The translations under genes were made by a program, and so were the position numbers. A stretch of 64,000 nt of DNA from Pseudacidobacterium ailaaui (GTDB lineage Bacteria > Acidobacteriota > Terriglobia > Terriglobales > Acidobacteriaceae): the NCBI RefSeq assembly GCF_000688455.1, contig NZ_JIAL01000001.1, positions 2,263,001 through 2,327,000 of the forward strand, in the 5' to 3' direction. How positions within the stretch are numbered: the first letter of the stretch is position 1; the number at the start of each line of letters is the position of its first letter. The notes under the pieces are model-generated. The model saw only the letters and a program-made list of their open reading frames with translations, was not told the origin of the DNA and made no database searches. Shown here piece by piece: positions 54,160 to 57,199 of the stretch.

Positions 54160-54975
54160 CTACTGGAGGAGTTTTTCAACCAGCTGCTGCGCGCTGTTGG
54201 CCTGGGCCAGGGCGCTGATGCCGGTCTGGCTCAGGATTTCGTATTTGGAGAGGTTGGAGGTAGCAGTGGCGTAGTCGGTAGCCATGACGTCATTTTCCGC
54301 CGAGAGTGTGTTGGTGGACTCGGTGCTCATGACGTTGGAAACCGCCTGTAGGGTGTTGATCTGTGCGCCGACGGTACCGCGGTCGGCGGCGATGGTGGAG
54401 ATGGCGGAGGTGATCTTGGTCAGTTCCGCCTGGGCTGTGGCCTGGTCTGTGAAGCCGGCAAAGGTCAGTCCAAGTGTTGTGGAGTCGACCTGGGCCAGGG
54501 CCGTGGTATCGTTCTGCTGGCTGGTCGTGCCGTCGGAGGTGTAAATGGCGGCCGTGGTGCCGAAGGTCTTGATGCCGTTGTACTCGGTGTTGGTGTTGAT
54601 GTTGTTGATCTCACCGATGATGTTGAGGTACTCGGAGTTGGCCGCTGAGATCTGGGTGGAGTTCAGCGTGCCGTTGGAGGCCTCCGTTGCCAGTGTTACT
54701 GCGCGGTTGAGCAGGCTGGTGATCTGAGACATGGCCCCGTCGGCCACTTGCAGGAAGTCGACGCCTTCGCTGGCGTTGCTGGCTGACTGCGAAAGGGCCG
54801 TGGAGGCCGCCTGCAGGCCATTGGCCAGAGAGAGACCGGCGGCGTCATCGGCGCCGGAGTTGATGCGTGAACCGGAGGAAAGCTGCTGGAGGGTCTTCTG
54901 CAGGTTGAGCTGCGTCTGGTTGAGGTTGTTTGCTGCATAGACAGCGGAGATATTATTCAGGACACCCAGTGACAT
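54160..54975 (-). CDS. fliC: Flagellin
   Basis: The 271-residue filament subunit is nearly pure D0-D1. It has an N-terminal flagellin domain (SLGVLNNISAVYAANNLNQT, LQQLSSGSRINSGADDAAGL) and a C-terminal domain (AENDVMATDYATATSNLSKY, ISALAQANSAQQLVEKLLQ). The surface-exposed D2/D3 region is very short. The ATG at 54975 follows GAGGAG by 11 bases and gives the conserved MSLGV start; the longer frame to 55140 runs through the promoter. A sigma28-type promoter lies about 70 bp upstream. Confidence 0.96.
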   Translation of the reverse strand: MSLGVLNNISAVYAANNLNQTQLNLQKTLQQLSSGSRINSGADDAAGLSLANGLQAASTALSQSASNASEGVDFLQVADGAMSQITSLLNRAVTLATEASNGTLNSTQISAANSEYLNIIGEINNINTNTEYNGIKTFGTTAAIYTSDGTTSQQNDTTALAQVDSTTLGLTFAGFTDQATAQAELTKITSAISTIAADRGTVGAQINTLQAVSNVMSTESTNTLSAENDVMATDYATATSNLSKYEILSQTGISALAQANSAQQLVEKLLQ

Positions 54976-55046
54976 AGATGCTGTGCTCCTCTTGATTTTG
55001 AATTTGGGGGGCCAGCATTTCCTGCGGCCCGGATTACCCACTGGCT

Positions 55047-55073
55047 TCATCGGCGCGGGCGACGGGGGCTTTA
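55047..55073 (-). promoter_or_regulatory. Sigma28 (FliA)-type promoter for fliC
   Basis: On the minus strand TAAAGCCC (55066-55073) and GCCGATGA (55047-55054) are exactly 11 bp apart. The consensus is TAAAGTTT-N11-GCCGATAA: the first five bases of the -35 and seven of eight of the -10 agree. Confidence 0.85.
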
Positions 55074-55089
55074 TGGGGCGGGTCCGGTT

Positions 55090-55105
55090 TGGCACACTAC
55101 GTGCG
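55090..55105 (+). promoter_or_regulatory. Sigma54 (RpoN)-type promoter for flbD-motA-motB
   Basis: TGGCAC, then 5 nt, then GTGCG. The invariant GG (-24) and GC (-12) have correct spacing, and the rest differs from TGGCAC-N5-TTGCW at two positions. It would start transcription near 55116, about 84 bp before the flbD ATG. Confidence 0.6.
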
Positions 55106-55199
55106 CCGGAGAAGGGTGAGAACGGGCGGTCCTCCCACATTTGAACCTTTTCCTCTCCTTGCCGATAAGCCCCTTATCACAGACAAGGACCCTCCACGC

Positions 55200-55547
55200 A
55201 TGATTGAACTGACAAGATTGAACGGGCAGCCGATGGTTGTGAACAGCGACCTGATCAAATACGTCGAGTCGTCTCCGGACACGATGCTGACCCTGATCCA
55301 CGGCGAAAAGATTGTCGTGGCCGAGCCGGGCGAGGAGGTGGTCCGGCGCGTGACCGAATACCGGACGCGGCTGCTGGCCGAAGTGATGAGACGGGTTGCC
55401 GGCGGCGATGCGGCGGCGATGGGTACGGCAGCGTCCGGCGCCGCGGGGCTACGGATTGTGGCCGCGCAGGCGGCGTTGGAAGATGCGCCCGGGGAAGAGG
55501 AAGCGCTGCTGCAGCGCAGACGCAGGGACAGATCCATCCAATTGTGA
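55200..55547 (+). CDS. flbD: FlbD-family flagellar protein with C-terminal extension
   Basis: The 115-residue product starts with the short FlbD pattern MIELTRLNGQPMVVNSDLIK, YVESSPDTMLTLIHGEKIVV and EEVVRRVTEYRTRLL. Typical FlbD proteins stop near residue 70; here a further 50 Ala/Gly/Glu/Arg-rich residues follow. The role is unclear, though genes of this family usually sit before motA. It is 9 nt upstream of motA. The ATG at 55200 gives the family's usual start. Confidence 0.85.
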   Translation: MIELTRLNGQPMVVNSDLIKYVESSPDTMLTLIHGEKIVVAEPGEEVVRRVTEYRTRLLAEVMRRVAGGDAAAMGTAASGAAGLRIVAAQAALEDAPGEEEALLQRRRRDRSIQL

Positions 55548-55556
55548 GACGCGACC

Positions 55557-56351
55557 ATGGACAAAAGCAGCTTTACAGGATTGTTGCTGGCGCTGGCCGG
55601 AATTCTGGCCGGACTGCTCATCGAAGGCGGGCATATCGGGCAGATTCTGCAGCCGACGGCGGCCATGATTGTGCTGGGGGGCACCATCGGGGCGGTGATG
55701 CTTCAGTATCCTCTGGCCACAGTGGGAGCGGCCTTCGGGCGGCTGGCGCAGGTATTCTTCGCCAAAAACAAGGACGCGGAGGCGACGGTGAAGCTGCTGC
55801 TGGGCTTTGCCAACAAGGCGCGGCGCAGCGGCATTGTTTCCCTGGACCAGGACCTGGCCTCGATTGGCGATCCATTTCTGAAGCAGGCGCTGATGCTGGC
55901 CGTCGATGGTACCGAGCCGGCCGAGCTGCGCAAGATCATGGAGCTGCACCTGGAGAACCAGGCCGAATCCGAAGATGCCATACCGGCGGTTTTTGAGTCG
56001 GCGGGAGGATTTGCGCCGACGATTGGCATTATTGGCGCGGTGATGGGGCTGATCCAGGTGATGCAGCGGCTGGACCACATGGATGAAGTGGGCCGGGGCA
56101 TCGCGGTGGCCTTTGTGGCGACCATTTACGGTGTGGGATGCGCGAACATCTTTTTTCTTCCGGCGGCGGGCAAGCTGCGTCACCGGATCAGCGAGGAGCG
56201 CCGGTTGAAGGAGATGGTGCTGGAAGGCGTGATCTCGATTCTGGAGGGCATGAACCCGCGCATGATTGAGATCAAGCTGCAGGGGTTTCATCCGACCACG
56301 GGCAGGAAAACGAAGAAAGAGAAAGGCGCGGTGGAGACGCAGGCGGCATGA
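55557..56351 (+). CDS. motA: Flagellar motor stator protein MotA
   Basis: The 264-residue protein has four membrane helices, with GGTIGAVMLQYPL following helix 2 and a cytosolic loop. The late helices lie in GGFAPTIGIIGAVMGLIQVM and GIAVAFVATIYGVGCANIFF, which contain the ion-path Pro region. The length fits the MotA/PomA/MotP group. With MotB it forms the torque-generating ion channel. The stop overlaps the motB start (ATGA). Confidence 0.95.
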   Translation: MDKSSFTGLLLALAGILAGLLIEGGHIGQILQPTAAMIVLGGTIGAVMLQYPLATVGAAFGRLAQVFFAKNKDAEATVKLLLGFANKARRSGIVSLDQDLASIGDPFLKQALMLAVDGTEPAELRKIMELHLENQAESEDAIPAVFESAGGFAPTIGIIGAVMGLIQVMQRLDHMDEVGRGIAVAFVATIYGVGCANIFFLPAAGKLRHRISEERRLKEMVLEGVISILEGMNPRMIEIKLQGFHPTTGRKTKKEKGAVETQAA

Positions 56352-57199
56352 AGCAGAAACACGAAAAGCATGCTCCGAACCACGAGCGGTGGCTGGTTTC
56401 CTATGCTGACTTCATCACGTTGATGTTTGCTTTTTTTGTCGTGATGTACGCCAGTTCCAAGGCAGACCTGAAGAAGCAGGCCGCCGTGGCCCAGGCGATC
56501 AATTCGGCATTCCAGTCCCTGGGGCTGTTTCAGTCCCCGGAGAAGGAACAGAACAAGGCGGCCGCAGCGCTGGCCACTTCGCAGGACGCGCCGGTTTCTC
56601 CGATGAATGTGGTGATGGGCGAGCAGATGATGGCATCGTCGGAGGTGCGGGAAGACCTGGAGCGCATCAAGAAGCACCTGGAGCGGCTGCTCTCCAACCA
56701 GATTGCGCGGCACGTGGTGGCGATCCGGATTGGACGGGACGGGCTGGTGATTTCTCTGCGCGAGGCCGGTTTTTATGAGAGCGGCTCGGCGGCGCCGCAA
56801 CCGGAGTCGGTCAGGACGCTGGATGAAATTGCCGAGGCGCTGCGGACAACGCCATATGACATTCGCATTGAGGGGCACACGGACAATGTGCCGATCCACA
56901 ACGGGCAGTTTGATTCGAACTGGGAGCTTTCGACGGCGCGGGCGACGCGGCTGGCCCGGATGTTTATTGTGGCCCACCACTATGCACCGGCGCGGCTTTC
57001 AGCCTCAGGCTATGCGGAGTTTCATCCGGTGGCGAGCAATGATTCGGCCGACGGGCGTTCGCAGAACCGGCGTGTGGACATCATTGTGCTGCCCAGCATG
57101 ACGGCGCCCGCGCGCGCTCCGGCAGTTGTGGTGCGGGACCTGAAGCCGGAGGCGATCAATGCCGCGTTGGCCCGGCCACTCCCAGCAGCTTCACGATGA
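56348..57199 (+). CDS. motB: Flagellar motor stator protein MotB
   Basis: The 283-residue protein has a single N-terminal membrane helix with the ion-binding Asp21 ([20 protein letters not shown]). A periplasmic linker and an OmpA-like peptidoglycan-binding domain follow ([34 protein letters not shown] and [14 protein letters not shown]). Its last 44 bp overlap the convergent YjbQ-family gene. Confidence 0.95.

Follow-up and report, generated by a model that had tools for sequence, protein, structure and literature searches.

Gene content of the locus and sampling of relatives

The window analysed here, a 64-kb stretch of a 3.69-Mb genome that consists of a single contig, came from a soil bacterium whose closest named relatives by MotA are Acidobacteriaceae (Acidobacteriota). 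Within it, the flagellin gene fliC (positions 54160-54975, minus strand; 271 aa; PF00669 and PF00700 over cut-off) is divergent from flbD (55200-55547, plus strand; 115 aa), from which it is separated by a gap of 224 bp, and flbD is followed on the same strand by the stator genes motA (55557-56351; PF01618 and PF20560, with NF006583 over cut-off) and motB (56348-57199; PF13677 and PF00691). As the best scores of the stator pair (55557-57199) were obtained with NF006583, a flagellar motor protein entry, over cut-off, and with the MotD entry NF006541, which stayed under cut-off, motAB is used as a loose label. The gap holds a predicted sigma-28 promoter facing fliC, a sigma-28-type site facing flbD-motAB and, between the two, a sigma-54-like element that also faces flbD.

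The initial annotation had treated flbD as a regulator gene. FlbD of Caulobacter is a sigma-54 activator with receiver, AAA+ and HTH domains, and an identity of this kind was ruled out for the protein encoded here, which is only 115 aa long and has PF06289 (E 7.9e-25, residues 1-57) as its sole Pfam match. Its PF06289 domain and its position next to motAB are those of the small FlbD proteins, which we take to be the same family as SwrD. An excerpt of PMC9195833 states that swrD increases flagellar motor power during swarming.

Of 396 genomes of the phylum, 69 had FlbD, at 70 places in total, and 48 of these places (30 loci and 18 stretches) were inspected, the 22 omitted lying outside the family. 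A further 17 loci found by MotA brought the total to 65, from which L162 (interval of 2076 bp) was excluded. Of the 64 flbD upstream regions left, 62 were distinct once loci with no difference in the compared stretch had been merged; flbD was divergent to fliC within 600 bp in 52 of the 64 regions (50 distinct). In a tree of MotA and FlbD (midpoint root, with L159 on a long branch), 15 loci formed a group with support 95/84, referred to below as the clade. L139, a near copy of L138, was left out of the column profile and the interval lists, and two sister loci, L102 and L143, were placed neither in the clade nor in the comparison group of 35 other divergent loci.

Sigma-28-type sites facing fliC and flbD

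Promoters of the sigma-28 (FliA) class carry a TAAA-type -35 and a GCCGATAA-type -10 at fixed spacing. The initial annotation had reported such a motif on the minus strand facing fliC, and an exact match to TAAAG-N14-GCCGATGA was indeed read there at 55047-55073 as TAAAGCCCCCGTCGCCCGCGCCGATGA, that is, TAAAGCCC-N11-GCCGATGA, with a predicted transcription start at about 55040. A search of the window for TAAAG-N14-GCCGATNA with up to two mismatches gave 11 matches against 3.7 expected, a number reached in none of 100 shuffles, and the fliC-facing site was the only exact match in the 64 kb; it therefore stands by its own sequence. Under a relaxed pattern, defined after the sites had been seen, a fliC-facing sigma-28-like site was present in 46 of the 50 distinct divergent loci (shuffled mean 0.2, maximum 2), with L135 (TAACG) failing and scored as a miss, and the strict form GCCGATRA faced fliC in 37 of the 50 (shuffled mean 0.4, maximum 3). 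This conservation supports the presence of a sigma-28 promoter from which FliA RNA polymerase would transcribe fliC leftward.

A second site of this type, absent from the initial annotation, lies on the plus strand at 55142-55168, where the sequence TGAACCTTTTCCTCTCCTTGCCGATAA fits TGAAC-N14-GCCGATAA, with 31 bases between the site and the start of flbD at 55200; the predicted transcription start is at about 55175. The -10 matched GCCGATAA at 8/8 positions and the -35 is weak, TGAAC matching at 3/5. In the comparison, 51 of the 62 distinct loci, counting the window's own, had GCCGATR no more than 75 nt from flbD (shuffled mean 0.66, maximum 3). These comprised 44 of the 50 divergent loci and 7 of the 12 non-divergent ones, nearly all of the latter 12 lying outside the family. 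Sigma-28-type sites pointed towards both fliC and flbD in 42 of the 50 distinct divergent loci. Three clade loci had an imperfect flbD -10 (7/8 in L130 and L132, 6/8 in L140), and the -10 was also kept where the sigma-54-like element described below was absent. The site overlooked by the initial annotation thus seems to be the best conserved signal facing the motor genes. Because its -10 recurs so widely, FliA most likely drives the stator operon as well as fliC, and sigma-54 would supply no more than an additional promoter, confined to one clade; the spread of both sites suggests that both operons are most likely FliA-dependent in most of the family.

These counts bear directly on the division of labour that had been proposed for the region, namely RpoN for stator and regulator genes and FliA for the filament. 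Both motifs exist, as such a scheme (flbD-motAB under sigma-54 only, fliC under sigma-28 only) would have it, yet the stator genes carry a conserved sigma-28-type -10 of their own, including in loci that lack the sigma-54-like element, and the latter is kept in one clade only; the scheme is accordingly regarded as improbable. The arrangement preferred here is instead one in which FliA RNA polymerase would also transcribe flbD-motA-motB rightward from 55142-55168. With both operons transcribed by FliA, filament and stator genes would therefore both be late genes, released upon FlgM export. In enteric bacteria, the class 3 promoters of motAB and fliC are FliA-dependent. The present locus would resemble these in placing filament and stator genes under sigma-28, and differs from them in that the two promoters stand back to back in one intergenic region.

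Genome-wide scans with loose sigma-54 and sigma-28 patterns were set aside as too noisy: the matches numbered 355 and 341, compared with 243 and 181 in the reversed controls, and seven of the matches listed in one of these scans belonged to a single tandem repeat. Another sigma-28 pattern had 14 exact matches in the genome, of which only the fliC and flgM sites were judged plausible promoters, the other loci being judged by eye from lists of open reading frames. A hand-set sigma-54 weight scan of about 200 kb returned many matches and was used only for candidate places and for the flbD-facing and flgM-facing sigma-28 sites.

Regulators and a probable sigma-54 tier of basal-body operons

The regulators sought in the genome for a tiered cascade were all found: rpoN, fliA (over cut-off), flgM, which has a sigma-28-type site upstream, and sigma-54 activators, whose family gave 15 matches. 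Ten of these are strong, including one (genome positions 450620-451849) that adjoins flgB. The latter has an AAA+ domain and lid and gave no HTH match in this genome or in the 6 relatives scanned, the protein ended soon after the AAA+ lid in the 10 relatives inspected, and its N-terminus resembles a receiver only weakly. A gene for an OmpR-type response regulator directly precedes that of the activator (450620-452550; L145).

According to an excerpt of PMC3930126, H. pylori FlgR is likewise a sigma-54 activator without a DNA-binding domain. The activator described here differs from FlgR in the OmpR-type gene that precedes it, in a box upstream of the -24 elements (see below) and in its weakly receiver-like N-terminus, and DNA binding may be supplied in trans by the OmpR-type regulator.

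In the 54 genomes searched, rpoN was found in 53 and the flgB-type activator in 45 (E<=1e-80). Within the clade (14 genomes searched, that of L139 being excluded), rpoN was not found in G399 and was a contig-end fragment in G402, and the activator was not found in G399, G401, G402 and G404, all of which are draft MAGs. Presence of rpoN or of the activator was considered as a test of the sigma-54-like element and rejected, since most genomes have both genes whether or not they have the element, so that neither gene discriminates.

A clearer sigma-54 signal was seen upstream of flgB, where [TC]GG-N9-TGC[ATG] was present in 24 of 28 loci, compared with 0-4 at other spacings (two of 30 activator loci gave no flgB match). 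Four loci of one genus, g2 (L191, L192, L193 and L174), lacked the flgB -24/-12 spacing and kept the activator. In five genomes of the same family (L176, L177, L180, L183 and L184), the stretch from the activator to flgB contained a hairpin-like repeat with a T run, terminator-like by eye, immediately ahead of the -24 element.

The upstream regions of flgB, fliN and flgF in this genome share the composite TTTTCTNAT-16 nt-YGG-N9-TGCA. When the whole genome was searched with this pattern, which was built from those three sites and then recovers them, five matches with at most one mismatch were obtained: those before flgB (450576-450616, minus strand; L238), fliN (2578037-2578077, plus strand; L239) and flgF (2588164-2588204, plus strand; L242), one just before a predicted fliK start (444082-444122, minus strand; L240) and one inside an unrelated open reading frame. 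The identification of fliK is based on a weak family match, under cut-off. At up to two mismatches there were 29 matches in the genome against 7 in the reversed control, and three of the 24 two-mismatch matches were inspected. A sigma-54 tier is thus likelier, and clearer, before flgB, fliN, flgF and perhaps fliK than before flbD.

Sigma-54 and sigma-28 tiers of the kind that the initial annotation had envisaged are therefore likely, given the regulators encoded, although the division of genes between them that it had claimed is not supported. Taken as a whole, the data partly support a tiered cascade of a known kind with a modestly new promoter layout. In common with the RpoN/FliA cascades of Pseudomonas, Campylobacter and Helicobacter, as covered by excerpts of PMC3930126 and PMC3372290, the genome encodes RpoN, FliA, FlgM and a sigma-54 activator, with sigma-54-type sites before basal-body operons and a sigma-28 site before flagellin. 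It differs from those cascades in that the activator sits with flgB behind an OmpR-type regulator, and in the layout of the stator genes, which are divergent from neighbouring fliC and have their own sigma-28-type site, joined in one clade by a sigma-54-like element.

The flagellar gene control of Acidobacteriota seems hardly to have been described: no title on flagellar promoters or gene control in the phylum was found in the open-access literature among the matches listed, and a table excerpted from PMC3372290 counts three Acidobacteria genomes with RpoN. The outcome of the present comparison is a family-wide set of putative promoter assignments, sigma-28 for flagellin and stator and sigma-54 with an upstream box for basal-body operons.

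A sigma-54-like element between the two sigma-28-type sites

On the plus strand at 55088-55105, a -24/-12 element reading TTTGGCACACTACGTGCG faces flbD, with a predicted start at about 55116. The motif TGGCAC-N5-GTGCG that the initial annotation had placed 16 bp from the fliC-facing site was confirmed within it, at 55090-55105 (TGGCACACTACGTGCG), the gap being 55074-55089. In an excerpt of PMC6424431, the sigma-54 consensus is given as TGGCACG-N4-TTGCW, with GG and GC ten bases apart. The GG and GC of the window site are separated by this distance, as they are in all 15 clade loci; the full TTGCW at -12 is not matched, the window having GTGCG and the clade a nearly invariant CGTGC, and the element is for this reason termed sigma-54-like. 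Counts in the window were not above expectation, either for TGGCAC-N5-TTGC with up to two mismatches (80 against 85.5 expected) or for TTGGC-N7-GTGCR with up to one (10 against 14.5), although the flbD-facing site was the only exact match to the latter. The element is consequently unremarkable by sequence alone, and its support comes from conservation in relatives.

Within the clade, TTGG-N9-TGC coincided with GG-N10-GC in 14 of 15 loci (L131 has TGTGG) and was found in 0-2 at other spacings. Under a looser pattern, 13 of 15 loci matched at spacing 10 and 0-5 at any other spacing, and on the opposite strand the count rose to 7 of 15, at spacing 11. The 14 non-redundant clade loci gave the consensus TTTGGCA-N5-CGTGCR, in which TTTGG and CGTGC vary little or not at all. 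No excess at the clade spacing was seen among the 35 other divergent loci, which as a group lack the element. This absence, together with the chance-level counts in the window, would fit a non-functional sequence that arose by chance and was inherited by shared descent in one clade. Such an origin is, however, very improbable, as the adjacent spacer has diverged (mean identity of its inner 13 bp 0.31 in 66 pairs) whereas the two halves of the element have hardly done so.

We lean, with little more than even confidence, towards three promoters in the gap: sigma-28 promoters of fliC and of flbD-motAB, and the clade-specific element as an extra, sigma-54-type promoter of flbD-motAB. What is observed here is the sequences, how they are conserved and the regulator genes; the sigma factor assigned to each site, the start positions, the order of expression and the activator are inferred. 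In the clade, the element would then most likely allow the stator to be expressed earlier, alongside the hook-basal-body operons, RpoN being opened by an activator such as the product of the gene adjoining flgB. The flbD element has no TTTTCTNAT box 16 nt upstream and has GTGCG in place of TGCA, which counts against its being of the same kind as the flgB, fliN and flgF sites.

The missing box is one of several observations that agree with a different role, in which TTTGGC-N6-CGTGC would be bound by a regulator of the fliC sigma-28 promoter, or of this and the flbD one together, and flbD-motAB would be transcribed with sigma-28 only. In 13 of the 15 clade loci the element stands 16 bp from the fliC -35, and in two sisters, one of them L128 of Acidobacterium sp. 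S8, it stands 27 bp away, one helical turn more, whereas other distances vary (71-132 for the fliC leader, 23-62 from the element to the flbD sigma-28 site). A promoter serving flbD alone needs no fixed distance to that of fliC, so the near-constancy counts against it and keeps a regulator site in contention; for the same reason, the element may serve fliC, or both fliC and flbD. In addition, the constancy of CGTGC and TTT exceeds what the sigma-54 consensus requires. There is also precedent, since an excerpt of PMC2859248 describes the E. coli aer and trg sigma-28 promoters as activated by CRP, and CRP as acting on an E. coli sigma-28 promoter from -49.5. Like aer and trg, the locus may carry a protein-binding site that stands at a fixed distance ahead of a sigma-28 promoter, and it differs from them in the motif.

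Other observations speak against a regulator site. GG-N10-GC is retained throughout the clade and the consensus is oriented, not symmetric, as expected of a -24/-12 promoter; a reading of the element as a dyad (GCA-N7-TGC) was also rejected, its arms matching poorly by eye. Elsewhere in the genome the motif shows no enrichment, with 2 exact matches in all and with 38 at up to one mismatch against 39 in the reversed control, so that no regulon of such a regulator is visible. Nor does the kept spacing weigh heavily. Judged from the flanks, a pair of loci would differ by about one indel in 16 bp, and none of the eight pairs compared differed in spacer length; the estimate is rough, as these pairs share members and the alignments are of diverged non-coding DNA. 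With few indels expected in 16 bp, the fixed length is only moderate evidence. A regulator site is on balance a possible but rather unlikely explanation, and an extra flbD-motAB promoter is preferred.

If the sigma-54-like element and the fliC promoter function as a pair, two alternative sigma factors would be coupled by geometry at one intergenic region, and a promoter pair with fixed spacing is unusual. One doubtful, more specific form of such coupling would have sigma-54 and sigma-28 holoenzymes locked back to back, 16 bp or one turn further apart, with the closed sigma-54 complex at flbD gating or assisting FliA at fliC and so tying filament to stator production.

The fliC -35 tract occupies the position at which the other likely flagellar sigma-54 promoters of the genome have the TTTTCTNAT box. 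Equating the two was rejected: the register is the same, but the sequence differs and the two loci with 27 bp between element and -35 do not keep the register, leaving the coincidence as a hint only. Related sequences were also observed beyond the clade. The sister pair L102 and L143 have TGGCACG 6 and 5 bp, respectively, from the -35, with GG-N11-GC in L143, and in L126, which belongs to another clade, TGGCCC-N5-ATGC and the -35 are 7 bp apart.
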